Shown here piece after piece: positions 1 through 60,897 of a stretch of DNA of 64,000 bases (positions are counted from its first letter, which is position 1; the number at the start of each line of letters is the position of its first letter). Position numbers and translations under genes: made by a program. The notes beneath the pieces were generated by a model. That model was not told the DNA's origin. It made no database searches and saw only the letters and a list, made by a program, of their open reading frames with translations. Origin of the DNA: Bradyrhizobium sp. G127 (GTDB lineage: Bacteria; Pseudomonadota; Alphaproteobacteria; Rhizobiales; Xanthobacteraceae); contig NZ_JAKFGN010000001.1 in assembly GCF_021502575.1 (NCBI RefSeq), positions 558,001 through 622,000 of the forward strand. Reading direction: 5' to 3'.

Positions 1-37
1 AGGCGATGATTCGCCAGTAACTATCCCGGACCGACAG

Positions 38-1228
38 ATGCAAGTTGACGCCATTTTCCCAACTACACAGCGCGATGTTCGCCTCGATTTATTCCGAGGA
101 CTTGCCAATTGGGCGATCTTTTTGGGGCACATATCCGGCACGATTCTCTCATGGTTCACGACGCGGAATTATGGCTTCAGCGATGGAGCCGACCTGTTTG
201 TGTTCATATCGGGTTACACAGCAACATTGGTCTTCGGTCGAATGATGGTGGCGCATGGGTTCGTCATAGGTGCCACAAGATTGATGCGACGCGTTTGGCA
301 GATCTATGTCGCGCACATATTGCTCTTTGTCTTCTACGTGACGTCGATTCACTACGTGGCACATAATTTTGACGTTCCCCATCTGATGGATCAATTCAAT
401 GTTGCCCGTCTAATGGAGTATCCGGTTGAAACTCTTAGCCAGGGGCTGATATTGAGGCTCAAGCCACTTAATTTAGATGTGCTGCCTCTTTACATCGTAT
501 TGATGGGACTATTTCCACCAGTCCTCTGGCTTATGCTGCGATGGCGAAACTTGGTTATGGTTGGCTCTGTACTGCTTTATGTGGCTGCGCGATATTTTCA
601 GTGGAATCTTCACGCTTACCCTGCGGGCGTTTGGTATTTCAACCCGCTCACGTGGCAGTTGGCCTTCGTCCTGGGCGCCTGGCTTGTATTGGGAGGCGCC
701 CATACGCTTCGATTTGTGATCCAGTCTCGGCTGGCACTACTCCTAAGCGTTGGATTTTTAGTCTTTGCCCTTCTGCTGACTTTGTCAGAGCGGATTCCAG
801 AGTTGCAGAAGATGTTTCCTGCTATGGTGATGGAGGTATTCGTCCCCAATGATAAGACGAACCTCGCCCCTTACAGAATGCTGCACTTGGCTAGTTTAAC
901 CTTGCTTGTCGTCCGCTTTATGCCCAGTGACTGGTCAGGTCTCAACTGGCCGGTGTTTCGTCCATTGATCAAGTGCGGCCAACAATCTCTTGCGGTATTT
1001 TGTCTCGGGGTTTTTCTCTCCTTCGCGGCCCACTTGGCACTCGACACAATCTCGAATGGAATTCTGGCCCAATTGTTTGTCGGTGTCGCCGGACTGTCGA
1101 TCATGACAGGCGTAGCCTACTATCGGTCATGGTCGAAACAGGTCGACAAGCTGTTATCGGTGCGTATGGACGGGGCTGCTCGCGAAAGCCGCTTTCCCGG
1201 GTTGAGGGGCGCTGATCGAACAAGCTAG
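38..1228 (+). CDS. OpgC-domain acyltransferase-like membrane protein
   Basis: Polytopic inner-membrane protein of 396 aa with about ten hydrophobic segments. The N-terminus reads RDVRLDLFRGLANWAIFLGH, the typical opening of the OpgC family (succinyl- or acyl-transfer to periplasmic glucans, related to acyltransferase 3), followed by FVFISGYTA in the next helix. Length fits OpgC proteins (about 370-400 aa). The ATG at 38 has a weak GGA seven bases upstream. It stands alone, with 157 bp before the next gene, and has no obvious link to the metal genes. The family assignment is good; the actual acceptor and donor are unknown. Confidence 0.85.
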   Translation: MQVDAIFPTTQRDVRLDLFRGLANWAIFLGHISGTILSWFTTRNYGFSDGADLFVFISGYTATLVFGRMMVAHGFVIGATRLMRRVWQIYVAHILLFVFYVTSIHYVAHNFDVPHLMDQFNVARLMEYPVETLSQGLILRLKPLNLDVLPLYIVLMGLFPPVLWLMLRWRNLVMVGSVLLYVAARYFQWNLHAYPAGVWYFNPLTWQLAFVLGAWLVLGGAHTLRFVIQSRLALLLSVGFLVFALLLTLSERIPELQKMFPAMVMEVFVPNDKTNLAPYRMLHLASLTLLVVRFMPSDWSGLNWPVFRPLIKCGQQSLAVFCLGVFLSFAAHLALDTISNGILAQLFVGVAGLSIMTGVAYYRSWSKQVDKLLSVRMDGAARESRFPGLRGADRTS

Positions 1229-1385
1229 ATCGGAGGTTATTAGCGGCATCTACGGAAAGCCGAAGGTGCTGGCGGAGCAAACCTGAGTCGGTGCGGAAGT
1301 CTAAGTTTTTGCTTATATGACGACTCGTGTCTCATGCAGTATCAGTGGAACAGCGTGAGAATCAGTGCGAAGGGAGAATGGAAGC

Positions 1386-1799
1386 ATGATGACTTCCGAA
1401 ATGGTTCTCAGCATTGAGGCGCGAGCGGCGGTGCTTCACGTGCTCCACTGGATGGCATTCGGCATCGAGATGCTCGGTGTGACGGTCATTGTTCTCGGCG
1501 TGATTGCTGCAAGCGGTTGGTCGGTTATTCAGACCTATCGAGGCGAATGGAATGGAGCGTTCCGCTCGTATCGCGCCAATCTTGGGCGCGGTATCCTGTT
1601 GGGCCTTGAGTTCCTCATCGCGGCTGACATCATAGGCATGGTGGCGATCGTGCCAACGTTCGAAAGACTGGGGATTCTTGGGTTGATCATCGTCATTCGA
1701 ACGTTCTTGAGCTTTTCTTTGCAGATCGAGATCGAAGGCCAATGGCCTTGGCGCCGATATAAGGCAGACGCTCAGAATGGGGAAAAAGATGTCTTGTGA
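1386..1799 (+). CDS. DUF1622 family membrane protein
   Basis: Small membrane protein of about 137 aa with three hydrophobic segments and the DUF1622 pattern: RANLGRGILLGLEFLIAADI near the middle, then a conserved RTFLSFSLQIEIEG stretch and a W-P-W-R end. Function unknown; the family is often found next to stress and transport genes. I chose the ATG at 1386 because AGGGAG lies nine bases upstream; an in-frame GTG at 1365 would add seven residues without a better ribosome site. Confidence 0.85.
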   Translation: MMTSEMVLSIEARAAVLHVLHWMAFGIEMLGVTVIVLGVIAASGWSVIQTYRGEWNGAFRSYRANLGRGILLGLEFLIAADIIGMVAIVPTFERLGILGLIIVIRTFLSFSLQIEIEGQWPWRRYKADAQNGEKDVL

Positions 1800-2450
1800 A
1801 CGCGGTAAGTTCAAACGAATTGAAAACTAATTCTGCCTCTTCTCGGTCGCATAAAGGCAAGGCGTGACACGATCGAGTCGTTCAGAGGAAAGCTGATAGA
1901 TCAGGTCAAAGTCCGTTCCGGCACGAGTCACGCTGCTTTCGAAATTGTTCAAGTGTCTCGGTCATCCTGTTGATCGATTCGCACTCGCCTTTCGTCATTG
2001 GATGATCCAAAGAGGGCGTTCGACAGCTCTGCACGATGGCGGAGGCTTTTCCAAGCAAACCTTGAACGCTCGTCGTAAGTAAAGACGAAATTATATGTTG
2101 GTCCATCCGCATCGGATGTAACCACTTCACCACGTTGGCGTTCTACAGATCTGAAATCGCTTGGAGGCAACAGTTGAGGAAGATCCAGTAAATGGCTTCC
2201 GTAATCTCCTCCACGCCCCGCAGCGGTATTCCGGATCGCTGGTCTGATTATCGATCATCATTTTATATAATTTCAGCTCGAGGCCCCAATTTCTCGGACA
2301 TGCTCGAAGTCGCCGGATGCTGAGCGAGTGCTGTATTTATAAAACTTAACCTGGGTCAATTTACGAAGGGAATTTCAGGCTTACAAGGACTCTTGAAGAT
2401 TACGACGGCCAACTCGGCATTTGTCGAGCGCAGTGATCGAGGAGATTCCG
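1800..2450. other. Gene-poor gap with decayed sequence
   Basis: About 650 bp between the DUF1622 gene and the Spy-like gene. A minus-strand open stretch around 1949-2170 has no clear start and no family I recognise; it may be a relic. A weak FNR-like palindrome (TTAAC-N4-GTCAA) lies at 2346-2359, about 90 bp before the Spy-like start. No RNA gene or insertion sequence was seen. Confidence 0.4.
2346..2359. promoter_or_regulatory. Weak FNR/FixK-like half-palindrome
   Basis: TTAACCTGGGTCAA matches 7 of the 10 defined positions of TTGAT-N4-ATCAA. It sits 92 bp upstream of the Spy-like gene that opens the copper cluster. On its own this is weak; it is listed because better versions occur upstream of other units in the window. 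Confidence 0.25.
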
Positions 2451-3137
2451 ATGAAGAATTCTGTCAAGCTGCTCGCTATCGCAGCCGCAAGCGCAATCAT
2501 CGCCGCTTTCGGGTATCCACAAAGCGTATCAGTTGCTGGGCAACAGTCACCCAGTCGCTTCATCGTTGCGATGGATGACATGAAATCCATGCAGCCGGAC
2601 TCTTCGAAAAAGGCCGATCCTGGCATGGGGACGCCGGGCGGTCAGTCTCCGAAGATGGGACGCATGATGGACGACGATAAGATGGAAATGCCGCAAAAGG
2701 ATCAGGATAAAATGGGTTCAGGTTCAATGAACCAACCCGGTGGCATGATGATGGAACGGATGATGCGACAGATGTGCGGAATGCCAGGCACTGCGGGGAC
2801 CGCAGCATCAACCGACATTACTGATCGAACAGAAGGGCGGATCGCCTTTTTGAAAGCAGAACTGCAGATTTCGGACAAGCAGGTTGGTGACTGGAATGCG
2901 CTGGCGGATGCACTGCGATCCGCGCGCTCGCACCTTGTCCAGGCTCAGCAACTTGTGGCTTCCGATAAGAAAATAACCTCGGCCGAGCGTCTCGAAGCCT
3001 ACGAAAAACACTTGGCAGAACGGCTTGAGGCGGTCAAATCCTCGCGTGCAGCATACAACCGCCTGTACGCGGCGCTGAACGAGGAGCAGAGGCGTACTTC
3101 AGATACGATACTTTTGCCGCTGATCGGGGCATTCTGA
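2451..3137 (+). CDS. Met-rich Spy/CpxP-like periplasmic protein
   Basis: Secreted protein of 228 aa. A signal peptide (MKNSVKLLAIAAASAIIAAF) is followed by a Met/Gly/Asp/Lys-rich stretch with clusters such as MMMERMMRQMCGMP, the kind of sequence that binds Cu(I) or Ag(I). The second half is helical, with an LQISDKQVGDWNALADALR segment that fits the LTxxQ-type helix of the Spy/CpxP chaperone family. GGAG six bases before the ATG at 2451 decides the start. It lies seven bases before the next gene, so it is probably the first gene of the electron-transfer and copper cluster. Likely role: periplasmic metal binding or chaperoning under copper stress (inference). Confidence 0.75.
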   Translation: MKNSVKLLAIAAASAIIAAFGYPQSVSVAGQQSPSRFIVAMDDMKSMQPDSSKKADPGMGTPGGQSPKMGRMMDDDKMEMPQKDQDKMGSGSMNQPGGMMMERMMRQMCGMPGTAGTAASTDITDRTEGRIAFLKAELQISDKQVGDWNALADALRSARSHLVQAQQLVASDKKITSAERLEAYEKHLAERLEAVKSSRAAYNRLYAALNEEQRRTSDTILLPLIGAF

Positions 3138-3144
3138 CTTCTCG

Positions 3145-5298
3145 GTGCTCACAACGCACATGAGATATGCGACGTTGGAAAATCCGCTGCAACGAACAAT
3201 CGTAGGAATTGTTGCGCTTGCTGTTTTCGGTCTTATCGAGGGCCGGGCAGCAAACGCTGGTCGTTTGCAAGAAAGCCAGATATCAGTTGGAATCCGTCTG
3301 CTGCTCCCGTCTGATACCTTCATCCCCGAAGTGCGCGCGACCGCTCAAAGCCGTTGGGTTATGGCTCAGGCGCAAGATGGTCACTCCGAGCATCATCCCA
3401 ATGCTGGCGCGAGTCCGATCTCCCCCAATATAGAGCCGCCAACAAATCAAAAGGACGCACCCGCAAACACGCCGAGCGCTGCGCCGGCCGCAGGGGGAAT
3501 GAGTTCGGGCGGGGGCGGCGCCATGAGCGGAATGATGGCGGGCGGCTGTATGGGCGGCGGCTGCATGGGCGGGGGGCGTAAGGAGTTTTACCCATCCCTG
3601 ATGGCTCTCCCGTCGCTGACCGACGAGCAGCGTCAAAGCATCGAGGCGCAGGCACGTGGTTGGATCAGTTCAGGTACGGATGAGATCGCGCGTGCGCAGG
3701 ACGAACTGCGTCACGCTAATGCGGCTGGCGACACGGCTGGCGGCGAGCAAGCCGCATCACGTCTCCGGGACGCATTGAATCAGGTCAAGAGTGGAACGAC
3801 GACGCTGCGATCACTCGCTGAAGGGGCGCCGCCTCAGCAAATCGCATTGGATTGGTTCAAAAGTCAGATGAGCCTCGTATCTGATCGGCACGATCAAGAA
3901 GTGGTCGGGCCGCTCGGTCTCTCCTGGTTTCATTTGATCACAATGGCATTGGTGGCAACCTTCGCGGTTGCCATGGTTGCTGTTTATCTGATGCGCATGC
4001 GCCGCGCGAATGCGCTCGTGGATCGTCTGGTCGGTGGCACGCCTGCCGCAGCGCTTGGCCCGGCGGCGGTCACCCCGTCGGCACGGTCATCCCCTGGCGG
4101 GACACTTGGTGTTGCAGATCCGATGGTTTCACCCGCGCCGGTGACCGGGCTGCCACCCTCTGTCGTAGCGATTGGTCCGGCTGGTCAAGCTGGCCGTACG
4201 GGTCCGGGGCTCTGGAAAGGGAAATTGCGCGTTGTTGCTATCTTCGATGAAACTCCCAACGTCAAGACGTTCAGGCTGAGGGATCCAGGCGGTGGGCCGA
4301 TTCCCTTCAGTTTCGAACCAGGCCAATTTCTCACCTACTCCGCCGAGATCGACGGCAAGGTGGTGAAACGGTCCTATACGATTGCATCATCGGCCGCGCA
4401 GACCGCTTATGTCGAGACCACCATCAAGCGTGAGGACAAAGGGATTTTCTCGGACTACATGCACCAGAAGATCTCCGAGGGCGACTTGGTGGACGTAATG
4501 GGACCCTCCGGCGCATTCACGTTTACAGGTAAAGAATCCGAGGGCGTGGTGCTCATCGGCGGGGGTGTCGGTATCACCCCCCTCATGGCGGCCATTCGCT
4601 ATCTCGACGATACGGCGTGGCCTGGAGAGATCTTCCTCATCTACGGCGCTCAGACGACCGAGCACTTCATCTTTCGCAGCGAGCTGGAATTTCGCCAGCG
4701 CCGCATGCGTCATCTGCATGTGGCGGCCACAATGGCGCGGGCCGCTGGTACGTCTTGGATGGGGGCCGAAGGACAGATTAGTCGGGAGTTTCTTACACAG
4801 TCCGTTCCCGACTTGGTGAAGCGTCGCATCCATCTGTGCGGCCCGCCGGGTATGATGCAGGCGATGAAGAAGCTCCTTGCCGAGATTGGAGTTCCGGCAG
4901 AACAGATCAAGACAGAGGCGTTCGGACCGGCCCTCGGAGCGGTGCCACCACCCGGTTTCACCGTGGTAAGCGAGGTCAGATCCACCGGCGCTGCAATCGC
5001 TCCGTCTGAGGCGAATGTACCGGCTATTGGTCCAGCAACGGCCTCGATACGCTTCTCAAAATCGAACAAGGTGGCGCCCCTCCCACCCGACAAGAGCGTA
5101 CTCGAGGTTGCGGAATCCGTTGGTGTGCCGATCGACTATTCCTGCCGCGCCGGCATTTGCGGGGTATGCAAGACCCAGCTTCTTGAAGGCAAGGTAACGA
5201 TGGAGGTTGAAGAGGCCTTGACGACCGATGACAAGGCTCGTGGCCTCATCTTGGCGTGCCAAGCGAAGTCGATCGATAACCTAGTCGTCGAGGCCTGA
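3145..5298 (+). CDS. Membrane-anchored Met-rich / ferredoxin-reductase / 2Fe-2S fusion protein
   Basis: A 717-aa multidomain protein. Order: hydrophobic signal or anchor (about 17-31); Gly/Met/Cys-rich linker (117-144) containing two CMGGG repeats; helical Spy-like part (147-245); one membrane helix (about 263-283) followed by RMRR, which predicts a cytosolic C-terminal half; Pro/Ala linker; FAD domain (359-465) with the RSYT flavin motif at 409-412; NAD(P) domain with GGGVGITP (472-479) and CGPPGM (565-570); and a plant-type 2Fe-2S ferredoxin domain with Cys667, Cys672, Cys675 and Cys705. The reductase and ferredoxin halves are standard; joining them to a periplasmic Met-rich domain is not an arrangement I know. 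GTG at 3145 or ATG at 3160 could start it. The next gene begins 1 base after its stop. Likely role: draw electrons from cytosolic NAD(P)H and pass them to the membrane b-type protein (inference). Confidence 0.85.
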   Translation: MLTTHMRYATLENPLQRTIVGIVALAVFGLIEGRAANAGRLQESQISVGIRLLLPSDTFIPEVRATAQSRWVMAQAQDGHSEHHPNAGASPISPNIEPPTNQKDAPANTPSAAPAAGGMSSGGGGAMSGMMAGGCMGGGCMGGGRKEFYPSLMALPSLTDEQRQSIEAQARGWISSGTDEIARAQDELRHANAAGDTAGGEQAASRLRDALNQVKSGTTTLRSLAEGAPPQQIALDWFKSQMSLVSDRHDQEVVGPLGLSWFHLITMALVATFAVAMVAVYLMRMRRANALVDRLVGGTPAAALGPAAVTPSARSSPGGTLGVADPMVSPAPVTGLPPSVVAIGPAGQAGRTGPGLWKGKLRVVAIFDETPNVKTFRLRDPGGGPIPFSFEPGQFLTYSAEIDGKVVKRSYTIASSAAQTAYVETTIKREDKGIFSDYMHQKISEGDLVDVMGPSGAFTFTGKESEGVVLIGGGVGITPLMAAIRYLDDTAWPGEIFLIYGAQTTEHFIFRSELEFRQRRMRHLHVAATMARAAGTSWMGAEGQISREFLTQSVPDLVKRRIHLCGPPGMMQAMKKLLAEIGVPAEQIKTEAFGPALGAVPPPGFTVVSEVRSTGAAIAPSEANVPAIGPATASIRFSKSNKVAPLPPDKSVLEVAESVGVPIDYSCRAGICGVCKTQLLEGKVTMEVEEALTTDDKARGLILACQAKSIDNLVVEA

Positions 5299-5299
5299 C

Positions 5300-6001
5300 A
5301 TGAGCGGGGCAGAGCGCGCTATCGTTGGGCTCGTGCTCACCATGTTGCTCTTTTTGGTTCCTGCGTTCGTCCTTCATACATCGCAACGATTTGCCGGAAG
5401 CCTGGCGGGATTTGCGCTTGGTACCATCGCCGCAACCTTGATGGTCTCCCTACTCATTTATCCGCTTGCCAAGCGCAGTCTCGGGCTGAGGTCACTGATC
5501 ACCCGGCTGATATCGATGCGCGCTCTTCTCGCATTTCACGTCTATGCGGGCGTGTTCGGAGCTTTTCTTGCTATCTTGCACACTGGCCACAAGTACCAGA
5601 GTGCGCTTGGTGTCGCACTGGTGATCAGTATGCTGGTGGTGGTGGTAACAGGGCTCGTGGGCAGATACCACCTGCCTGAGACCGCAGCGGAGCTGCGCGA
5701 GGAGCAAGCGCGGTTGGCAACGCTAAGGTCCGCATACGACCGCACGGCAGCCGCTTTGGCAAACCGTAGCGCGGCGGGAAACGGCCCGCTCCCTAGCGCA
5801 TCGACCTTGCTTGAAGTGCCGATTCTGCAACTCGTCGATGGCATAGCCGATCTGGAATATGCTATCGGATCGCGCGAAGGGGTGAAGCGCATCTTTACGC
5901 CGTGGATCGTCGCGCATGTTGTGGCGGCGATCGTGATGTATTTCCTATTGTCGCTTCACGTGGCGGGCGAGATCTATTATGGATTGCGGTGGCTATCGTG
6001 A
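5300..6001 (+). CDS. Di-haem b-type membrane protein (ferric-reductase-like)
   Basis: 233 aa with about five or six membrane helices. Two helices each carry a pair of histidines 14 residues apart, H80/H94 and H206/H220. That spacing is the haem-stacking pattern of cytochrome b and NOX/ferric-reductase membrane domains, where the two pairs bind two haems across the membrane. Extra histidines are H97 and H124. A soluble charged loop (about 127-195) separates the two haem-binding regions. It is translationally tight with its neighbours: 1 base after the FNR/ferredoxin fusion and a 4-base overlap (GTGA) with the multihaem cytochrome. It lacks its own flavin domain, which the upstream gene supplies. 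Best guess: the transmembrane electron carrier of a three-protein conduit. Confidence 0.75.
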   Translation: MSGAERAIVGLVLTMLLFLVPAFVLHTSQRFAGSLAGFALGTIAATLMVSLLIYPLAKRSLGLRSLITRLISMRALLAFHVYAGVFGAFLAILHTGHKYQSALGVALVISMLVVVVTGLVGRYHLPETAAELREEQARLATLRSAYDRTAAALANRSAAGNGPLPSASTLLEVPILQLVDGIADLEYAIGSREGVKRIFTPWIVAHVVAAIVMYFLLSLHVAGEIYYGLRWLS

Positions 6002-6774
6002 AGAAGCTTGGCGCATTCTATACAGCGCTGATCACGCTGGCGCTGGTAAGTAGCGTAGCGGCTATTGGAACTCTCTACAAAAAGGGATCGATATCGTTTC
6101 CAGGCTGGCAGGCCTCGTTCCAGCCTGGGCCGCTTTCCGCAAAGCACTCGTTTCTTGCTGAGAAATGCGAATCCTGTCACACGCCGACCCGCGGTGTTGA
6201 GGCAACTGCCTGTATCAACTGTCATACCACGGCTGCTACCGACCTGGCCAAGCAGTCGACCGCATTTCACGCAAACGCCCAGAACTGCACTGGTTGCCAT
6301 GTAGAGCACACCGGTGCAGCGCGGCCGATAAAAATGGCTCACACCTCTCTCGTTCGGATCGGTTCACATGCTGCCTATGGCGACACAGGACATCCGAACG
6401 TTCCGCGCCAGATGGTGGACGATTTGAAAGAGCTCTTGGGGCTACCCGCCTCGGAGCCGGTTGAGAAGTCGCAACTCGACTGCGCAGGCTGCCACAGCAA
6501 CCGTGATCCGCATCGGGAGCTGTTTGGGCGGGACTGCGCGAACTGTCATGCGACCGCGACTTGGCGGATTTCCCCATTCTTGCACCCATCGCCGACTTCG
6601 AAAGACTGCGCGCAGTGCCATCAAGCACCGCCGAGTCACTACATGATGCATTTCCAGATGATGGACCGGGGTATTACCGGTCGGGAGCATGCTCAAGTAA
6701 ACCAGTGTTTCGAATGCCATCGTACAGACTCGTTCAACAATATCAAAGGCGTCGGCTGGTTTAAACACCACTGA
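5998..6774 (+). CDS. Periplasmic seven-haem cytochrome c (cytochrome c3-like)
   Basis: 258 aa from a GTG at 5998 that overlaps the stop of the previous gene by four bases. An N-terminal hydrophobic segment (AFYTALITLALVSSVAAIG) serves as signal or anchor. Seven CxxCH haem-attachment motifs follow: CESCH, CINCH, CTGCH, CAGCH, CANCH, CAQCH and CFECH, with extra histidines that could be distal ligands. This resembles multihaem cytochrome c3/c7-type electron carriers (class III-like). Placed after the b-type protein, it is the likely periplasmic electron acceptor. Whether it passes electrons to copper, to CopA, or to an outside acceptor cannot be told from sequence. Confidence 0.9.
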   Translation: MKKLGAFYTALITLALVSSVAAIGTLYKKGSISFPGWQASFQPGPLSAKHSFLAEKCESCHTPTRGVEATACINCHTTAATDLAKQSTAFHANAQNCTGCHVEHTGAARPIKMAHTSLVRIGSHAAYGDTGHPNVPRQMVDDLKELLGLPASEPVEKSQLDCAGCHSNRDPHRELFGRDCANCHATATWRISPFLHPSPTSKDCAQCHQAPPSHYMMHFQMMDRGITGREHAQVNQCFECHRTDSFNNIKGVGWFKHH

Positions 6775-7286
6775 GAAAACATGCCTTATGGCGAGCATGG
6801 TCAGATTTGGTCCGACACCATTTGATTTTGGCTTCGCCGATCTCGTCTAATGAACGAACGCCCTCCGATACGTGAAAGCCTGCATTCTAGGAAACAAAAC
6901 GTGTGAGCGTAGCTCGATTCCTTAGTTGGGTTGGACCGGGACTAATGGTTCAATCTAGCCTACAGTCTCGAACCCAATGTATGCGGAATTGTTTCAACCG
7001 TGACGCCGAGGTGATCTGCGATATCCTGGGTGGCGGTCGGTCGATGTCGCCGGTGGCACTAAGCAGTTCTCATAACAGCTTGCCATCACAGCGCGGAGAA
7101 CGGCACGCAGTGATCGAGAGCACCAAAAGAAATTCCTGCACAAGGGTACAACCGCGCTGCTTACTGTTGCGCGAAAACATCAAGCTTGCGAGATCGCAGC
7201 AATCTTTAACGTAGATCAGTTTTTTAAATCAACGGAAGCCTAACTTGCCAGTCGCTTGTACGCGACGCTGACTCTGGTCAGGCACC
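6775..7286. other. Gap before copA
   Basis: About 510 bp between the multihaem cytochrome and copA. The short open stretch at 6903-7214 on + shows no recognisable domain and no ribosome site. I saw no copper-regulator operator, FNR palindrome or transposon end. It probably holds the copA promoter and some decayed sequence. Confidence 0.35.
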
Positions 7287-9326
7287 ATGGTTGCCTCGAT
7301 TAGATGCGTCCAAAATGGTGTTGGCATGCACAAGATATGGAGCGCTGCTTGGTGTGCAGTGATTGCCTGTATCCCCGCAAGCAGCGGATCGGCGGTCGCC
7401 GAAACACATGACATCGTGATCGAGCGTCATGTTGTAAATGTAACGGGACGCGAGCGCGTTGGCATGCTCATCAATGGCCAACTTCCAGGACCAATTTTAA
7501 GGCTCAGGGAAGGGGAAGACGCTGAGATCAATGTCACCAACAAACTTGATGAGAATGCGTCGATCCATTGGCACGGTTTGATCGTGCCACCCGAAATGGA
7601 CGGTGTGCCGGGAATTTCACCGGGATACGGGGATGGTATCAAGCCAGGTGAGATCTTTACTTATCGGTTTAAGGTTCGGCAGGCCGGTACCTATTGGTTT
7701 CATAGTCACTCCTCGGGCGAGCAAGAGCAACTCGGGATGTACGCCCCTCTCATTGTTGAGCCGCGCGAGCGTGAGCCATTTAGTTATGACCGCGACTATG
7801 TGATCATGCTCTCAGACTGGACGGATGAGGATCCGAAACGCATTATCAGGAATCTCAAACAGGATAGTAGCTGGTATAATTTTAACCGCCGTACCCTGGT
7901 CGGGTTGATACAGGAGCTCAGCCAAGCCCCCGATGAGGAAGCGCGCCGAGCGATCATTAATGATCGCGCGACGTGGGGACTTATGCGGATGGACCCGACT
8001 GATATCGCGGATGTGTCGGGCTACACGTTCTTGGTGAATGGTCAATCGCCGGAGCGGAATTACACTGCCTTGGCCCGTCCGGGCGAGCGGGTACGTTTGC
8101 GTTTTATCAATGCGGCGACGTCGACGTACTTCGATGTTCGCATTCCAGGGCTCAAGATGACGGTCGTGCAGGCCGACGGCAACAACGTGTCACCGGTGCA
8201 GGTCGATGAATTCCGTATCGCAGTCGCAGAGACTTTCGATGTCATTGTGCAACCAAAGGAAGATCGCGCCTATACAATTGTAGCGGAGTCGATGGACCGG
8301 ACCGGCTTTGCTCGCGCGACCCTGGCGCCGCGACTGGGGATGATTGGACAATTACCGGTTCATCGCGCTCGACGGCTCGTGTCCATGTCCGAAATGGCGA
8401 TGAATCCTGGGCCGACGGGAATTGATCGTGGCACGGTTCATCCGGAACAGGACATGCTGGGTCATGTAGCACCGCAGATTCCCATGGAAATGGAGAACGG
8501 CACTGGCGGCATGCCAAGGATGGGTGATGCGCCTATGACGGGAAAAAGCGTCATGCCCATGAAGCGCGGCAGCGTAGGGCAGGAGGAGAAGCGAAAGACG
8601 AAAAGGCCTTCTTCTAGTCCAAGCATGCCGGGAATGAAGCATGAGAGAATGCCGGGGATGAGTGGGGCACCGGCCGACGAAAGGGCGGCCTTTGCGCAGA
8701 TGCAAAGCGGAGGTCACGGCAGCATGCCGAGCATGGCTGATCAATCGAAAGGCAAGCCCGGCAACTCCACTCCTTCAGCAGTTCCGATAACGCCGGCGCC
8801 TGAGCAAGGGGGAGAGGATATGCCAAGCGTTGGTGAGATGGGTCAGCAGGCGATGCCCGATCCGATCACTCACGACACCGGAGCGCCCCCCGGCACAAGA
8901 GTTCTTTCCTACCGCGACCTGAAGCCGCTCAAACCTTATCCCTACAGGCGCTTTGACCGGATCATCGAAATCCGGCTGACCGGGAACATGCAGCGATATT
9001 TCTGGTCGATCAACGGGCGCAAATTCAGCGAAGCTGAACCTATTACCTTGCGTTTCGGCGAGCGCGCTCGATTCCGTTTCATCAATGAGACCATGATGAA
9101 TCATCCAATGCATATCCATGGTACGTGGATGCTTCCGGAAGTTGGAAACGGGGCACGCAATCCCATGAAACATACGGTCAACATCAAGCCCGGTACCACG
9201 CTGGATGTCGACATACCGGCAGATGCGGAAGGACCATGGGCCTTTCACTGCCATCTGCTCTACCACATGGAGACAGGCATGATGCGCCAGGTCAACGTGG
9301 TGCGCCGGACTGCGTCGACCCATTAG
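7287..9326 (+). CDS. copA: Copper-resistance multicopper oxidase CopA
   Basis: 679 aa. All four copper-ligand motifs are present: HWHG (94-97), HSH (139-141), HPMHIHG (606-612) and HCHLLYHMETGM (654-665) with type-1 Cys655. Between about 380 and 550 there is a long Met/His/Gly-rich insert with repeats such as MPGM and MSGAP, as in CopA/PcoA, which binds extra copper. CopA proteins oxidise Cu(I) in the periplasm. The N-terminus (MHKIWSAAWCAVIACIPASS from the second ATG at 7326) looks like a Sec signal and lacks the twin-arginine motif usual in this family. Start may be 7287 or 7326; neither has a strong ribosome site. copB follows after 9 bases. Confidence 0.95.
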   Translation: MVASIRCVQNGVGMHKIWSAAWCAVIACIPASSGSAVAETHDIVIERHVVNVTGRERVGMLINGQLPGPILRLREGEDAEINVTNKLDENASIHWHGLIVPPEMDGVPGISPGYGDGIKPGEIFTYRFKVRQAGTYWFHSHSSGEQEQLGMYAPLIVEPREREPFSYDRDYVIMLSDWTDEDPKRIIRNLKQDSSWYNFNRRTLVGLIQELSQAPDEEARRAIINDRATWGLMRMDPTDIADVSGYTFLVNGQSPERNYTALARPGERVRLRFINAATSTYFDVRIPGLKMTVVQADGNNVSPVQVDEFRIAVAETFDVIVQPKEDRAYTIVAESMDRTGFARATLAPRLGMIGQLPVHRARRLVSMSEMAMNPGPTGIDRGTVHPEQDMLGHVAPQIPMEMENGTGGMPRMGDAPMTGKSVMPMKRGSVGQEEKRKTKRPSSSPSMPGMKHERMPGMSGAPADERAAFAQMQSGGHGSMPSMADQSKGKPGNSTPSAVPITPAPEQGGEDMPSVGEMGQQAMPDPITHDTGAPPGTRVLSYRDLKPLKPYPYRRFDRIIEIRLTGNMQRYFWSINGRKFSEAEPITLRFGERARFRFINETMMNHPMHIHGTWMLPEVGNGARNPMKHTVNIKPGTTLDVDIPADAEGPWAFHCHLLYHMETGMMRQVNVVRRTASTH

Positions 9327-9335
9327 GAGGCGGCC

Positions 9336-10115
9336 ATGAATCGGGTCCTGCTGTTCAGCCTCTGTCTCGCCGCCTCTTTCGCACGGGCGGGTCTCGCCAC
9401 CGCTCAGACGGTTTCGAGCCCATCCCAGGACATTCCATATTCCGGGCTTCGCAGTTTGCCCGGGTCGAACTTTCCAGACCAGGCGCTGTTCAGCGGTGTC
9501 CGTTTCGACAAATTGGAATGGGCGGGTTTGGGCGCCGGTAACTCTGCCCGCTGGGATATGGAAGCCTTTGTCGGCAATGACTACGATAAGTTCTTCTTTA
9601 AATCAGAAGGTGCTTATGATGGCAGAAAGCAGAAGTTTGAGGAGGCTCGATTTCAGGCGCTCTACTCGCGCATGATCAGTTACTTCTTTGATCTACAGGT
9701 TGGCGTTCGTCATGATGTCTCGCCGAACCCGTCGCGTACTTATGCGGTAATTGGCATTGAGGGCTTGGCGCCGGGCGTGTTCGAAATCGATGCGGACGCG
9801 TATGTTAGCCAAAAGGGCGAGCTATCTGCATCATTCACTGGGTTTTATGATCTTTTGATAACGAACCGACTTATCCTACAGCCGCGTATCGACGTAAGAT
9901 GGCAGCTACAGTCGGTTCCAGAGTTGGAGCTCGGCAGCGGTATTACCGATTTCGAACTCGGCGCTCGGCTCCGATACGACATTACACGCAATGTCTCGCC
10001 GTATATCGGCGTGAGTTGGGATCGTAAGCTAAGCGAGACGGCGGCTATTGCGGAGCGCAACCTGAAGGCAGTCTCAAGCGTGAATTTCGTAGGCGGAGTA
10101 CGCCTTCTCTGGTGA
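9336..10115 (+). CDS. copB: Outer-membrane copper-resistance protein CopB
   Basis: 259 aa with a signal peptide (MNRVLLFSLCLAASFARAGL) and a beta-barrel core typical of CopB/PcoB: the opening DKLEW, alternating aromatic/hydrophobic strands, GVRHD and RYDITRNVSPYIGV, and an aromatic C-terminal residue (LLW) suited to outer-membrane assembly. It lacks the Met/His-rich N-terminal region found in many CopB proteins, so it is a short form; Met-rich segments occur instead in its neighbours. AGGAGG lies 5 bases before the ATG. It is co-transcribed with copA. Confidence 0.93.
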   Translation: MNRVLLFSLCLAASFARAGLATAQTVSSPSQDIPYSGLRSLPGSNFPDQALFSGVRFDKLEWAGLGAGNSARWDMEAFVGNDYDKFFFKSEGAYDGRKQKFEEARFQALYSRMISYFFDLQVGVRHDVSPNPSRTYAVIGIEGLAPGVFEIDADAYVSQKGELSASFTGFYDLLITNRLILQPRIDVRWQLQSVPELELGSGITDFELGARLRYDITRNVSPYIGVSWDRKLSETAAIAERNLKAVSSVNFVGGVRLLW

Positions 10116-10190
10116 GAAATTCCAAGTGGATTGAGTTTAAACGTTCTTCTAGAGGCACCTTGAACATTAAGCGTTCGCGGGATTTGCTGG

Positions 10191-10204
10191 CTGATTAGGT
10201 TCAA
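10191..10204. promoter_or_regulatory. Possible FNR-like box before the Csp gene
   Basis: CTGATTAGGTTCAA matches 8 of the 10 defined positions of TTGAT-N4-ATCAA and ends 43 bp before the ATG of the Cys-rich copper-store gene. That spacing leaves almost no leader if the site acts at -41.5, so it may be chance. Confidence 0.25.
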
Positions 10205-10247
10205 AATCTCGACGCCGTATCAAGCAGTTCGAACGAAGGTAGATAAC

Positions 10248-10703
10248 ATGATGGACCGTCGTCAGCTTCTCGGATCGTCTGCGGTTCTTGCCGCAGTCAG
10301 TCTCGCCGTGGGGCCCGTTTCGGCTCACGGACCAGATCATTCTGCGATGCCTGGAATGACTCCAGGTGCCATGACGCGGGAGAGCTGCATAGAAGAGTGC
10401 CTAAGATCCCATCGTATGTGCCTCGAGACTGCAAGGTACTGTACCGAAAAGGGAGAAGGTCATGTTGCCGCAGCACATATGGCTCTCCTGCTCGATTGTG
10501 CGGAGATGTGTCAAACCACAGCTAATTCCTTGCTTCGCTTTTCTCCGCAACACGGTGTCATATGCGGAGCATGTGCTCAGCTATGTGAGGCTTGCGCTAA
10601 GGATTGCGAATTGTTTGCTGGTGACGACCGGATGGCGCGCTGTGCTGCGACGTGTCGCGAGTGCGCCCAGCATTGTCGTGGAATGATCAACGTGAAGCTG
10701 TGA
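10248..10703 (+). CDS. Tat-exported Cys-rich four-helix copper storage protein (Csp/DUF326-like)
   Basis: 151 aa. A twin-arginine signal (MMDRRQLLGSSAVLAAVS) precedes a helical domain with 15 cysteines, most in CxxxC or CxxC pairs (47/51, 84/88, 106/109/113/116/120, 132/136/139/143). This matches the Csp1-type four-helix bundles whose core is lined with Cys thiolates that hold many Cu(I) ions. A short His/Met segment (HGPDHSAMPGM) follows the cleavage site. Tat export suggests folding, perhaps with metal, before export. It is the last gene of the copper cluster, 132 bp after copB. The family assignment is strong. Confidence 0.9.
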   Translation: MMDRRQLLGSSAVLAAVSLAVGPVSAHGPDHSAMPGMTPGAMTRESCIEECLRSHRMCLETARYCTEKGEGHVAAAHMALLLDCAEMCQTTANSLLRFSPQHGVICGACAQLCEACAKDCELFAGDDRMARCAATCRECAQHCRGMINVKL

Positions 10704-10786
10704 GTTGATAGTCTTTGCGAAAAGGCGTCGGGCTGCAGTGATCGCCTAACTGCCGATATTCATCGTGGCGAGCGGGGCTGTGGCCT

Positions 10787-12118
10787 TCAAGTCGGCACTT
10801 CGGACGACCCACATCCATGCATTCCGGCGCTTGGAATTTTGGTGGATGACGAAACGGAAGTGATCGGTCTGCTGATGGCAAGCAAGCCCTTTAGGCCTTC
10901 GCCGAAGCGGGCAATCGATTCCCGATGATTTCGAAGTTCGCTGTAAGGAAGATACCGTAAATTTAATTCAGACACGCGGGAGAACGCAGGTCGGCCAAAT
11001 TGCGTCCGGACCTCGCCTTGCCGATTATCAGGGGCGACGAGAAAGAGGTGATGCGCGGCGCCGCCTTCTATGCCGAGCGCGAGGTCCAGCATTCTCAAGA
11101 TGCCGGAGTAGATGCTGGTCGTATGCTCGACCTCAAAGGCCGCTGCGACATGTCCCTGGGTATCGATCCAAAGAACGTCGATCAGTTTGATGGTATCGCC
11201 TTGCATTGCATATGCAATATTGTCGGGCAACTGCACAAGGCAGCCGTCGCTAAGCCGGCCGTTACGGTAGGATCGGGAGGAATCATTCGAGGCGATCCAT
11301 ACGCTATAGCCCAGTGCCATTCCAAGATCCCGGAGCCATCCCTGGATTTCGGTGTGAGTGTGGTCGGCGTCGTGAGCGATAGTTGTCGTTGCCGCGGCGG
11401 ATTCGGCGCGGACCTGCTCGAGAATTGCTTTCCATGCATCGAGCGAGCCGTTCATCGCCTGCGGCGGTAGCGGATAGCGTTCCGTACCTAAATCGAACAG
11501 GAACGCAGCGGCCGCTCCTAAATCATTTGACAGCAGGCTCCGATGTTGGGAGTTCAGCGTCAGGATCCCTTTTCGCATCCCCAGATATTGATCCCACCGG
11601 CCAAGTTTGACGCCGGCATTTGTCAGCGCGTTGTAGCCTCTAACGATAGCTGTGTTGAACGGGGGCATGATCGTCGGATGCAAAAAATACAGCAGGTTAG
11701 CAGCAGCCGGCCCGAGGCCTTTGATTGCCACCTGCTCTAAAGTCCGGATTGCGTCGAGTACGTGCTCCTCGGTATCGCAGCAAAGGCAGGTGTCGAGGAA
11801 ACGACCGAAGGCAATCTGGTTTGGACGGCTCTCATAGATGTCTGGAATACGTAGTTTTGGCTTCCACATAAACGCGTGATTGGCACCTTTGAAGACTTGC
11901 CGCTGCTCGGCGATCGAGTCGAGCACCGTCTCCAGGGAGGATCCCCTATAGGCGTTACCGAAGGTGTCGGCCTTGATTTCCGTGATGACCTCCTGAAGCC
12001 CGCGCCGGATGGACCGGAAATTCTTGATCCTTTCTTCCCACAGGAACCAGTTCCGGTAGGTCCCACCCTCGTCGTCCCTCCAGTGCCGTATGAGGTCTCC
12101 GATCCAGATCTCATCCAC
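10787..12118 (-). CDS. Restriction-endonuclease-like protein with helix-hairpin-helix-like segment
   Basis: 443 aa, opposite strand to the copper genes. Residues 131-161 (AIKGLGPAAANLLYFL...) resemble the helix-hairpin-helix found in glycosylase and restriction proteins. The C-terminal third has a PD-(D/E)XK-like signature: Glu257, Asp314 in LIDVLW, then FEVEH (Glu329, Glu331), with Glu where many nucleases have Lys. No methyltransferase gene adjoins, so if it cuts DNA its target must be modified or otherwise restricted. Function is inferred from fold-level pattern only; it could be a solitary restriction or repair-type nuclease. Confidence 0.6.
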   Translation of the reverse strand: MDEIWIGDLIRHWRDDEGGTYRNWFLWEERIKNFRSIRRGLQEVITEIKADTFGNAYRGSSLETVLDSIAEQRQVFKGANHAFMWKPKLRIPDIYESRPNQIAFGRFLDTCLCCDTEEHVLDAIRTLEQVAIKGLGPAAANLLYFLHPTIMPPFNTAIVRGYNALTNAGVKLGRWDQYLGMRKGILTLNSQHRSLLSNDLGAAAAFLFDLGTERYPLPPQAMNGSLDAWKAILEQVRAESAAATTTIAHDADHTHTEIQGWLRDLGMALGYSVWIASNDSSRSYRNGRLSDGCLVQLPDNIAYAMQGDTIKLIDVLWIDTQGHVAAAFEVEHTTSIYSGILRMLDLALGIEGGAAHHLFLVAPDNRQGEVRTQFGRPAFSRVSELNLRYLPYSELRNHRESIARFGEGLKGLLAISRPITSVSSSTKIPSAGMHGCGSSEVPT

Positions 12119-22104: not shown

Positions 22105-22118
22105 TTGATCCTGATCAA
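22105..22118. promoter_or_regulatory. Perfect FNR/FixK palindrome
   Basis: TTGATCCTGATCAA is a perfect TTGAT-N4-ATCAA site. Its centre (22111.5) would put a class II start of transcription near 22153, 50 bp before the first codon of the small membrane protein and cytochrome b561 pair. This is the best oxygen-response site on the + side of the island. Confidence 0.75.
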
Positions 22119-39782: not shown

Positions 39783-41312
39783 TCATGGTTCGACCTTGAT
39801 GATATCACCGGACCGGGCAGCGTATTCGAGAGCATAAGCGAGTTCGCCGTGCGTCTCGGCATGGACATGAAGCATTGGCTGGCCCTTATCAATTTCGTGG
39901 CCCAGCCGCACGTCCATGCGAACGCCGGCAGCCTTGGCCTCGGGGGCTCCGGCGAGTTTGGCAAGTCGGGCGAGCTTTCGGTTGTCGATATGGACAATAC
40001 GTCCTGCATGCGGCGCCACAAGCGGGTGAACGTTGGAGGCGGTCGGGGGTGTGCGCATGCCACCCTGCGCCTCGCAGATGGCCTTAAATTTCGTCCAGGC
40101 TAAACCTTCGGCAAGCGTTTTGAGCGCGAGCCGAGTCCCTTCGCCCTTTTCGGCTTTTCTGCCGATTTCGAGCGCTGCGCCCGCAAGCGCCGCGGCGCGC
40201 CTCCTAAGGTCGTCCGGTGCATCGTGTGCATTTTGAAGGACAGCCAGGATGTCGAGAGCCTCAAGGGCCGGCCCGATACCCCGGCCGACGGGCTGCGACC
40301 CGTCGGTCTGGAGACATGTCGCGGTGAGGCCGAAGCGTGCTGCGACTATGCCAATACGCTTAGCAAGGTGATCGGCGCTCTCTTCGCTGCGGACCTTTGC
40401 GGTCGCACCGACAGGAATGTCGATCACCACATGGGTCGAGCCAGCGGAAATTTTCTTCGACAGCACGGAGGCGATAAGTTGGCCTTCGGTATCGATATCG
40501 AGTTCACGCTCGACGCGCAGAAAGATGTCGTCGGCAGGACTGAGATGCACCGCGCCGCCCCAGGCGATGCAGCCACCCTCGGTCTCCACGACACGCCTGA
40601 GCGTCGCAATATCGAGGTCGACTGGCGCAAGCGTCTCCATCGTGTCGGCCGTGCCCGCCGGCGAGGTTATCGCGCGCGAGGAGGTCTTGGGCATGATAAG
40701 GCCGTGCGCTGCAACGATGGCGACGATTATCGGCGTGGTGCGATTGCCCGGCAGGCCGCCGATACAGTGCTTGTCGATGACAATCGGAGCATCCCAGTGC
40801 ATGCGATCGCCGACCTCGACCATCGCGCTAGTCAGGTCGGCGGTTTCCTCCTCATCCAAAGGCAGGGCAGCCCCCGCTGTCAGGAAAGCGGCAAGATGCA
40901 CGTCGGTGTATCGGCCCGCTACGACGTCGTTGACGATCGCCCCAAACGCGGAGGCGTCGAGGCGGTTACCGTAGATGCGCCGGCGGACGCTTGCCAGCGA
41001 TTCGATCGCAGGGGCGTGTGTTACTTTCACGGCCTCGCCGTTAACAATGCCGAGGATTATCCAGGCGGTCTCCGAAAGCGCAATCTCGTCATGCCCGACT
41101 AATCCGTCGCCCTCAACCTGGAAGAGGGTTGCCTGTACTTGTCGGTTGCCGGTCGAAACGAGGATCTGCGATCTTGCGGTAAGGCCCTCCGACCGGCAGA
41201 CATGGCAGTCTGTGCGCATGATGACCACTGCCTGATGCTGGGTGTGGAGGCCGAGACGTTTGGCGCGGAGCATTGGCTGTGCGACTGCGTTGTTCGGTTC
41301 GAAGGCGGTCAT
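39783..41312 (-). CDS. Long-form thymidine phosphorylase / AMP phosphorylase family
   Basis: 509 aa, the length of the archaeal-type family rather than the 440-aa DeoA. Extra N-terminal domain (about 1-90), then the phosphorylase core: DVHLAAFLTAGAALPLDEEE, DKHCIGGLPGNRTTPIIVAI (the KHS/CxGG phosphate loop), KTSSRAITSPAGTADTMETL and the C-terminal GRIVHIDNRKLARLAKLAGA domain. Members split nucleosides, or AMP and other NMPs in archaea, with phosphate to base and ribose-1-phosphate or ribose-1,5-bisphosphate. ATGA overlap with the upstream ribonuclease-like gene. Substrate cannot be decided here. Confidence 0.85.
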   Translation of the reverse strand: MTAFEPNNAVAQPMLRAKRLGLHTQHQAVVIMRTDCHVCRSEGLTARSQILVSTGNRQVQATLFQVEGDGLVGHDEIALSETAWIILGIVNGEAVKVTHAPAIESLASVRRRIYGNRLDASAFGAIVNDVVAGRYTDVHLAAFLTAGAALPLDEEETADLTSAMVEVGDRMHWDAPIVIDKHCIGGLPGNRTTPIIVAIVAAHGLIMPKTSSRAITSPAGTADTMETLAPVDLDIATLRRVVETEGGCIAWGGAVHLSPADDIFLRVERELDIDTEGQLIASVLSKKISAGSTHVVIDIPVGATAKVRSEESADHLAKRIGIVAARFGLTATCLQTDGSQPVGRGIGPALEALDILAVLQNAHDAPDDLRRRAAALAGAALEIGRKAEKGEGTRLALKTLAEGLAWTKFKAICEAQGGMRTPPTASNVHPLVAPHAGRIVHIDNRKLARLAKLAGAPEAKAAGVRMDVRLGHEIDKGQPMLHVHAETHGELAYALEYAARSGDIIKVEP

Positions 41313-42667
41313 AGATCGAACGCCTGATCCTGACGGGGAACGGTCGCGTTCCATCCGAGATCCTTGTCGATGCGAATGCGCAGCGCCTCAGCTGCTTCGG
41401 GCTCGCCATGCACGATGAAGACATGCGAGGGGCTGTGACGGAAGCCTGAGAGCCAGCGCATCAGTTCGTTGGCGTCCGCATGAGCCGAGAGCGTCGTTAA
41501 ATCGTCGACCTCCGCACGAACGGGAATCCATTCGCCGTAAATCCTGATCTCCTGAGCACCCTGCAACATCGCTCGCCCTCGCGTCCCGGCGGCCTGGAAA
41601 CCGGAGAACAGGATCGTGTTTCTCTGATCAGGTGCGAATGTCTTCAAATGATGGAGCACGCGTCCGCCGGTCGCCATACCGCTCGCGGAGATCACCACCT
41701 TGGGATAGCGGCTGGCGGTGATCGCTTTGGAAGCTTCGACATCTCTTGTGTAAGTTGCAATTCCGCAGATCGCGCCGCAGACGTCCGGTGTGAGGCGATG
41801 ATCAGCACGGTGCGCGTGAAGCAAGTCGGTCGCGTTGATCGCCATGGGGCTGTCGAGATAGATCGGAATATTCGAAAGTCTGCCGGCGGTCTTCAACTTC
41901 CATAAATGATAGAGCAGCGATTGCGCGCGTCCGACGGCGAAGGCCGGGATCACGACGGTGCCGCCGCGCTGAACCGTCCGCTCGATGACGGCGCCGAGAA
42001 GCTCTGTGCTGTCGCCCGGCTCATGGACGCGGTTGCCATAGGTAGATTCGATGACAATGTAGTCAGCTTCCAGGATCGGCTCGGGATCGAGCATCACCGG
42101 ATCGCTATAGCGTCCGAGATCGCCGGAGAAAGCAATGCGGCGGCCAGCCCATTCGATGTCGGCGGTTGCGGCGCCCAGGATGTGCCCGGCATGACGGAAT
42201 GTCAGCGCCGCGCCACCCGGAAGCTGAATGGTCTTACCGAAGGGGACGGGCGAAAAGAACTCAACCGTACGTTCGGCGTCGTGAATGCCGTAGAGCGGCA
42301 AGGCGGGCTTGTGCTTCGAGAATCCCTTGCGGTTAGCGTATTCGGCATCCTTCTCCTGAAGATAGCCGCTGTCATTGAGGATCATCTCGGCCACATCGCG
42401 CGTGGCGTCGGTTGCGAAGATGCGGCCTCGAAAGCCATCGCGTATAAGCTTGGGCAGATAGCCGGAATGGTCGAGATGGGCGTGGGTCAGCACGATCGCG
42501 TCAATGCTGGACGGCTCGATCGGCAATGGCACCCAGTTCAGGTCACGCAAATTCTTCAGGCCCTGGAATAGGCCGCAGTCGATCAGAATGCGCTTTCCGC
42601 CGTGAGAAAGTAGATGTTTCGAGCCGGTGACGGTTCCCGCACCGCCAAGTGAAGTGAGTGTGAGCAT
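41309..42667 (-). CDS. Metallo-beta-lactamase/beta-CASP RNA-processing exonuclease-like protein
   Basis: 452 aa. Zinc motifs of the MBL fold: LTHAHLDHSG (motif 2), H in RHAGHILGAA (motif 3), D in FSGDLGRY (motif 4); beta-CASP region with IPAFAVGRAQSLLYHL and motif C in TLSAHAD; a final FIVHGEPEAAEALRIRI RNA-specificity segment. Related to CPSF73-like and RNase J-like nucleases. It lies 8 bases after the phosphoketolase-like gene and overlaps the phosphorylase gene, suggesting coupled work on RNA or nucleotide salvage. Confidence 0.9.
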   Translation of the reverse strand: MLTLTSLGGAGTVTGSKHLLSHGGKRILIDCGLFQGLKNLRDLNWVPLPIEPSSIDAIVLTHAHLDHSGYLPKLIRDGFRGRIFATDATRDVAEMILNDSGYLQEKDAEYANRKGFSKHKPALPLYGIHDAERTVEFFSPVPFGKTIQLPGGAALTFRHAGHILGAATADIEWAGRRIAFSGDLGRYSDPVMLDPEPILEADYIVIESTYGNRVHEPGDSTELLGAVIERTVQRGGTVVIPAFAVGRAQSLLYHLWKLKTAGRLSNIPIYLDSPMAINATDLLHAHRADHRLTPDVCGAICGIATYTRDVEASKAITASRYPKVVISASGMATGGRVLHHLKTFAPDQRNTILFSGFQAAGTRGRAMLQGAQEIRIYGEWIPVRAEVDDLTTLSAHADANELMRWLSGFRHSPSHVFIVHGEPEAAEALRIRIDKDLGWNATVPRQDQAFDL

Positions 42668-46504: not shown

Positions 46505-46535
46505 GACCGTCTGCTCGTTTGATCTGGCGACGCCT

Positions 46536-60219: not shown

Positions 60220-60233
60220 TTGATACAGATCAA
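60220..60233. promoter_or_regulatory. Perfect FNR/FixK palindrome between divergent genes
   Basis: TTGATACAGATCAA, a perfect TTGAT-N4-ATCAA site. A class II start on the minus side would fall near 60185, about 58 bp before the NifX-like gene; on the plus side near 60268, about 100 bp before the secreted protein's GTG. Confidence 0.75.
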
Positions 60234-60758: not shown

Positions 60759-60897
60759 TCAAGCTCTCGATCGAACACGCCATCGCTGGTTTCGCGGGTG
60801 AGCAGCGTTCGACCGGAAGGCAATAGATGCTGCGGGTCTCGGTTCTCGAACCCGTCCTTGATGAGACATGTGTGCTCAGTTCTTTGGGAGTCGAAAG

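Follow-up and report, generated by a model that had tools for sequence, protein, structure and literature searches.

A candidate mobile NAD(P)H:multihaem-cytochrome reductase encoded beside copper-handling genes in Bradyrhizobium sp. G127

Introduction

Accounts of bacterial copper islands usually centre on pumps, binders, and oxidases. In the Fre-MsrQ-MsrP system, a cytosolic flavin reductase is combined with a b-type membrane protein and a periplasmic acceptor, the molybdoenzyme MsrP, and the FAD/NAD-fed proteins of the Ferric_reduct (PF01794)/NOX type carry two pairs of haem-ligand histidines on two helices, with a spacing of approximately 14 residues in NOX. Here we analyze a stretch of 64,000 nucleotides from Bradyrhizobium sp. 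G127 (RefSeq assembly GCF_021502575.1, contig NZ_JAKFGN010000001.1, positions 558,001 to 622,000 of the forward strand; hereafter the window), in which three adjoining genes encode a membrane-anchored FNR/2Fe-2S protein, a membrane protein that is a candidate di-haem cytochrome b, and a heptahaem c-type cytochrome (hereafter the FNR, b, and c proteins, and together the trio). The trio is an apparently undescribed arrangement of known parts, and we propose, with a probability of approximately 0.55, that it acts as a mobile transmembrane NAD(P)H:multihaem-cytochrome reductase in periplasmic metal redox chemistry, most likely the reduction of Cu(II) to Cu(I).

The b protein resembles PF01794/NOX proteins in its histidine pairs, whereas the trio as a whole differs from them in having a separate membrane-anchored reductase, an added 2Fe-2S domain, and a heptahaem c as the exit. 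From Fre-MsrQ-MsrP it differs in its heptahaem cytochrome and in an integral FNR/2Fe-2S protein with a predicted periplasmic head. The four central histidines of b also recall the four-His cytochromes DUF4405, MsrQ, PepSY, and FezC, and for DUF4405-like members the relevant part of one report proposes a transmembrane electron role (PMC11334425). The partners given there are flavinylated proteins rather than a multihaem c, and the window b protein falls below the curated DUF4405 cut-off (PF14358; 19.2 bits versus 26.7). The same part of that report proposes one-way transfer from NAD(P)H to the extracytosol by an Nqr/Rnf-like two-subunit system, built from an NqrC/RnfG-like subunit and an NqrB/RnfD-like one that has an NAD-binding domain, where the trio uses b and a multihaem c (PMC11334425).

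Results

Three coupled genes form a conserved mobile unit

An initial annotation of the window had described the trio as a transmembrane electron conduit in a copper setting. Its observations are confirmed and its interpretation is partly supported by our analysis. The tight coupling that it reported is borne out by the open reading frame coordinates, with a single base (5299) between the FNR and b genes and a four-base overlap (GTGA) between b and c (Table 1); the start of c was set at 5998, where homologues begin aligning, while the mechanical reading frame list has 5902. The same trio recurs elsewhere. Across 52 places with a b gene (47 without repeats), an FNR gene adjoins b in 50 and a c gene in 51, the misses being contig or locus edges, so the possibility that homologues are never linked fails. 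Gaps or overlaps between the aligned parts of the trio do not exceed 15 bases. A scan of genome contigs returned 20 loci with b relatives, all in Hyphomicrobiales genera or families by title, and FNR, b, and c matches occur together in 19 of them, the exception (L020) being a contig that begins inside b. Co-evolution of the three genes is evident from their trees, which mirror each other over 43 loci with r values of 0.903, 0.881, and 0.867, versus a best value of 0.388 in 1000 permutations; this set omits repeated or near-identical loci (L006, L012, L022, L033, L082, and L083) and loci without one of the genes.

By tblastn, b was found in 52 plasmid records that include Alpha-, Beta-, and Gammaproteobacteria and Bacteroidota, with at least 80% query coverage in 24. 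In the b tree, which was printed without support values, Bacteroidota copies are interspersed with proteobacterial copies, and those from Legionella neighbour sphingomonad copies. The unit is rare and sporadic, with strong b matches in seven of 398 genomes in a phylum sample and three of 385 in a class sample, and b matches in three of 100 genomes in a family sample (two of them strong), each sample including the window's own genome; none of three other genomes of the window's genus has a b match, and no relative was confirmed in viral contigs. Plasmid pBBta01 of BTAi1 bears three copies, the third of which has an FNR gene shortened beside an IS3 transposase (L083, 7103-9257). On a Methylophaga plasmid (L090, 14751-20756), a ccm operon follows the trio by approximately 3 kb, as if supplying its own haem attachment. 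We conclude that the trio is a real conserved mobile unit, often found on plasmids.

The FNR protein is predicted to combine a cytosolic reductase with a periplasmic head

The flavin, NAD(P), and 2Fe-2S domains first assigned to the FNR protein are confirmed by Pfam matches above the cut-offs to FAD_binding_6, NAD_binding_1, and Fer2, and all three are matched at E≤0.1 by 11 of 11 FNR members. Their order is PaaE/GbcB-like, with the window protein above the curated scores; it lies below the named equivalogs GbcB, PaaE, and NADH oxidoreductase PRK10684, at best 225.7 bits versus a cut-off of 500. The initial annotation had missed residues 1-300, which hold a signal-peptide-like segment, an HxxHH motif, a Met/Cys/Gly-rich stretch, a helical domain, and a membrane helix, in this order ahead of the reductase. 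The signal-like start and the single membrane helix with its Arg-rich C-terminal flank lead us to expect the head in the periplasm and the reductase in the cytosol. The charge distribution likewise suggests a cytosolic location for the FNR and 2Fe-2S domains, in agreement with the earlier prediction. HxxHH is kept in 16 of 16 FNR proteins from three proteobacterial classes and Bacteroidota, a count from which L081 and the FNR proteins whose annotated start leaves them short (L022, L030, L031, and L086) were omitted, and it is also present in all nine other aligned sequences that reach this region. The structure model of the protein has a mean predicted local distance difference test score (pLDDT) of 55. 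An origin of the head from Spy/LTXXQ proteins, considered for its LTxEQR-like start, was rejected, as the hhalign probability versus island LTXXQ proteins was 0.2; LTXXQ is also absent among the Pfam families matched by the 11 FNR proteins.

The b and c proteins carry conserved candidate haem ligands

The two histidine pairs noted in b at 14-residue spacing (His 80/His 94 and His 206/His 220, with codons at 5537, 5579, 5915, and 5957) are present as described and do not vary across 21 aligned b proteins, making b a candidate haem b protein. This agrees with the ferric reductase superfamily trait of two helices bearing two His pairs at a spacing of 13-14, and a positive-inside charge pattern supports the proposed topology. 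The ferric reductase profile itself, which had been suggested as a check, does not match the window protein; PF01794 is matched at E≤0.1 by five other members of the set of 21 (best 0.0049), and PF14358 by 15 of the 21 (best 4.2e-5). Comparison of the b sequence with solved structures gave chance-level matches only.

The seven CxxCH motifs counted in c are found at residues 57, 72, 97, 162, 180, 204, and 237. The protein is of the cytochrome c3/c7 multihaem type by its CxxCH repeats and by profile, with Cytochrom_c3_2, Cytochrome_C7, and Paired_CXXCH_1 all passing their cut-offs. An alignment of 20 c proteins shows all seven haem sites and eight further histidines to be invariant, and these eight would suffice for seven bis-His haems, suggesting that c is a wire rather than an enzyme. 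Exactly seven CxxCH motifs occur in 48 of 51 c frames; the others have eight (L013, where the frame extends upstream), six (L037), and three (L086, which has no annotated c gene). From sequence, the wiring of the trio is well supported, and it is only the gene context that suggests the direction of electron flow and a role in copper handling.

Copper and pentose-phosphate genes recur beside the trio

The neighbourhood was counted at 45 loci, one per replicon stretch and with flanks of up to 8.5 kb, several being shortened by contig ends. Copper markers lie near the trio in 28 of 45 loci versus five of 40 control stretches (22 of 36 loci in an earlier count with looser limits), a CopA-type oxidase in 19 versus none, and strict markers (multicopper oxidase, CopB, Csp, CsoR, or CusF) in 21 versus none. 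The copper cluster first seen around the trio in the window is therefore a setting that also recurs in unrelated bacteria. Pentose-phosphate genes are present at six loci and in no control, with gnd in five, zwf in three, and tal in four; five of the six have gnd or zwf, and L013 has tal alone, whose product does not itself generate NAD(P)H. The BTAi1 plasmid carries gnd-zwf-FNR-b-c-hypothetical-tal on one strand, L009 has the order tal-gnd-zwf-FNR-b-c with all three pentose-phosphate genes on the strand of FNR, and in L065 gnd and zwf lie upstream of FNR on the same strand. Any of copper, pentose-phosphate, or hydrogenase genes was found at 36 of 45 loci versus five of 40 controls. Because pentose-phosphate genes adjoin the trio, we favour NAD(P)H as the donor, and because the HxxHH motif, Met-rich partners, and copper handlers point to copper as the target, Cu(II) reduction would be the simplest product.

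The gene 5' of FNR adds to this picture. In the window it encodes a Met-rich protein, overlooked at first, that ends seven bases before the FNR gene and is the probable first gene of the operon. Its Met content after residue 25 is 8.9%, while 38 window proteins average 2.3%. Among the 20 nearest annotated upstream genes examined (in L030, none is annotated directly before FNR), 19 encode Met-rich proteins with at least 5.2% Met after residue 25, a value exceeded by two of the 38 window proteins; the sole exception is zwf on the BTAi1 plasmid. These 19 proteins fall into ten groups without BLASTP similarity between groups, and 17 have a hydrophobic N-terminus, the others being L022, whose annotated start is probably too early, and L031, whose upstream gene may be the displaced head of its own FNR protein. 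Two of the 19 genes are on the opposite strand. Met-rich partners could suffer oxidation under copper stress, and the wiring logic of the trio is like that of Fre-MsrQ-MsrP; the trio could thus feed a periplasmic Met-sulfoxide or disulfide reductase that repairs or matures Met-rich copper proteins, as MsrQ feeds MsrP. We consider this very unlikely, as no annotated reductase is a constant neighbour in the annotated regions inspected.

Several points weigh against copper reduction. The controls come from seven alphaproteobacterial genomes and are mostly not plasmid, and the marker queries were drawn from the same set of loci, which are themselves related, so that the Fisher p-values for copper, pentose-phosphate, and hydrogenase genes (2e-6, 0.019, and 0.07) are indicative. 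Seven of the 28 copper loci are counted on an RND or P-type ATPase gene alone, as are all five positive controls, and 17 of the 45 loci have no copper marker within approximately 8.5 kb. Oxidation of Cu(I) is the activity generally ascribed to CopA-type oxidases and would run counter to a Cu(II) reductase. A CueR-like operator before the operon was rejected, with three weak matches in 15 regions versus 2.3 expected by shuffling. The structure model of b is weak (mean pLDDT 67); fold searches with it returned mostly coiled coils and long helices and were not used, and the absence of any family from them carries no meaning. Finally, at two of the 45 loci, in Alteromonas and Glaciecola, a hydrogenase cluster directly follows the trio.

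Hydrogenase genes suggest electron import at a minority of loci

A hydrogenase is encoded near the trio in four of 45 loci versus none of 40 controls. Electron transfer from H2 to NAD+ is downhill, and a periplasmic uptake [NiFe] hydrogenase or other donor could pass electrons through the heptahaem c and b to the FNR protein, making NAD(P)H. Where a hydrogenase is present, this import of H2 electrons is the main rival to Cu(II) reduction: the trio lies directly before HynSL-type genes in Alteromonas and Glaciecola, where import fits equally well, hydrogenase small-subunit matches also occur near L011 and L084, and both small subunits inspected (Alteromonas and BTAi1) begin with Tat-like signals by eye. 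Taken over all loci, import appears unlikely. No hydrogenase is nearby in the other 41, gnd or zwf beside the trio points to NAD(P)H as donor, and the window genome (99.99% complete) has no match to the [NiFe] large-subunit family in a search that was positive in five of 14 control genomes.

By gene order, orf1 and cyt of the Alteromonas HynSL cluster, listed for AltDE as orf1/cyt/orf2/hynD/hupH/hynS/hynL in the part of PMC3102683 that sets out the cluster, appear to be the b and c genes of L023. That part of the paper groups orf1 and cyt with the hydrogenase accessory genes, and the upstream FNR gene lies outside its listed constructs. It also gives Orf1 and Cyt as dispensable for maximal HynSL activity in E. 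coli, which argues against import, although what it addresses is maturation and not the electron partner in nature (PMC3102683). The initial view that no such set had been described therefore stands for the trio, a description of which was not found among the matches listed in a literature search with most subscription papers outside its reach, and does not stand for b and c, which had apparently been published. The Alteromonas record also has copC, copD, and an RND gene approximately 10 kb upstream of the trio. Alteromonas metal-resistance islands with hydrogenase genes have been reported in papers whose main text does not contain the word cytochrome (PMC8478169, PMC4781885). PMC4781885 credits a strain that carries such a plasmid with better tolerance of copper, zinc, and mercury, which is not evidence for the trio itself.

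Island cargo and regulatory sites point to a possible low-oxygen link

Copper could also be merely the setting, with NAD(P)H electrons being dumped on periplasmic acceptors (monohaem cytochromes, or an oxidase and O2) when oxygen is low or respiration is blocked by metal. The islands carry phosphoketolase, AdhP, aldehyde dehydrogenase, and glycogen enzymes, consistent with fermentation or sugar storage, the window itself has a phosphoketolase, and monohaem cytochrome c genes lie near the trio in several plasmids. The FNR-box-like motif TTGAN6TCAA has four matches in the window (3775-3788, 22105-22118, 49295-49308, and 60220-60233) versus 0.7 expected, there are two perfect TTGATN4ATCAA sites, and two Crp-type regulator genes (cNMP_binding and HTH_Crp_2) lie at 60868-61698 and 62488-63270; part of the island may therefore respond to low oxygen. 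This redox relief seems improbable for the trio, if less so than electron import. No TTGATN4ATCAA or FNR-box site lies before the operon, and control of the trio by an FNR-box was rejected, as the only site in the operon sits inside the FNR coding region. Redox relief also leaves HxxHH and the Met-rich partner unexplained, and CxxCH occurs in none of eight neighbouring multicopper oxidases inspected. Promoter and terminator scans found nothing above shuffles, and no Rfam family was found in window positions 1-12000.

Other features of the islands were recorded. An OpgC - DUF1622 - Met-rich LTXXQ block precedes the trio (window 38-3137), and the three families occur at eight, 17, and 18 of the 45 loci, respectively, and at none of the 40 controls. 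The window also has a thymidine-phosphorylase-like gene (39783-41354) and a ribose-phosphate pyrophosphokinase-like gene (45509-46582), and the same two-gene cargo lies beside the trio on plasmids of Legionella adelaidensis (L088, 14106-16513) and Qipengyuania (L092, 13150-15485).

Table 1. Positions of the trio, its domains, and neighbouring genes in the window
Feature	Position	Strand	Details
DUF1622 membrane protein, recurrent neighbour	1365..1799	+	17/45 loci
Met-rich protein, signal-like N-terminus, LTXXQ (Spy/CpxP-like) domain	2451..3137	+	LTXXQ E 1.4e-19
FNR gene, membrane-anchored FNR/2Fe-2S protein, 717 amino acids	3145..5298	+	GTG start
HxxHH motif (HSEHH, residues 80-84), near start of predicted exported part	3382..3396	+	
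Met/Cys/Gly-rich stretch, residues 119-144, candidate Cu(I)/Ag(I) ligands	3499..3576	+	composition differs among lineages
Conserved helical periplasmic domain (predicted), residues 148-241, no family matched	3586..3867	+	
Membrane helix, residues 261-297, Arg-rich at C-terminal, cytosolic side	3925..4035	+	
FAD_binding_6 and NAD_binding_1 domains	4234..4869	+	Pfam; residues 364-459 and 470-575
Fer2 domain, plant-type 2Fe-2S	5071..5268	+	Pfam residues 643-708; Cys 667, 672, 675, 705 invariant
b gene, five-helix membrane protein, candidate di-haem cytochrome b	5300..6001	+	ATG start
c gene, heptahaem c-type cytochrome, N-terminal hydrophobic segment	5998..6774	+	GTG start
CopA-type multicopper oxidase	7287..9326	+	TIGR01480 E 2.4e-197
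CopB	9336..10115	+	PF05275 E 3e-73
Four-helix copper-storage-like (Csp1) protein	10248..10703	+	TIGR04401 E 1.2e-7, below cut-off

Distant b relatives belong to a wider set of loci

In the phylum sample, b matches were found in 37 genomes, 30 of them weak. For 24 weak b loci (23 from the phylum sample and one from the family sample), approximately 1.5 kb on each side was fetched. This revealed that a frame with four to 14 CxxCH motifs follows b in all 24, while an FNR match precedes it in nine. Each of the 24 distant b proteins contains two or more His pairs at 14-residue spacing, the second pair lying outside the aligned part in nearly all. In longer stretches of L072, L073, and L075, nearby frames have 24, 34, and 24 CxxCH motifs, corresponding to very large multihaem cytochromes.

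Discussion

If the trio reduces periplasmic copper, NAD(P)H would reduce the FAD domain of the FNR protein, from which the electron would move to the 2Fe-2S domain and then to the cytosolic-side haem of b, putatively held by His80 and His206. Transfer to the periplasmic-side haem (His94/His220) would be followed by transfer to the anchored heptahaem c, which would spread the electron in the periplasm for one-electron reduction of Cu(II), and perhaps also of Ag or other metal ions. The resulting Cu(I) may be caught at Met-rich sites in the FNR head and the Met-rich partner and passed to handlers with genes close to the trio, such as Csp, RND efflux, a P-type ATPase, or CopA. A fuller version of this proposal, which we put forward tentatively and at somewhat less than even odds, is that the trio is a periplasmic metal reductase not described before, which is driven by NAD(P)H, spread by plasmids, and equipped with a copper-binding head, and which sets the periplasmic Cu(I)/Cu(II) balance. 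It would be one branch of a much larger bacterial family of conduits made of FNR, four-His b, and multihaem c proteins with from few to more than 20 haems.

If true, the trio would link resistance to metals with cytosolic NAD(P)H, with some plasmids bringing their own NAD(P)H-making enzymes. It offers a defined gene set for asking if periplasmic copper undergoes active reduction by bacteria, and it leads to a wider, minable family of conduits composed of an FNR protein, a b protein, and a multihaem c.

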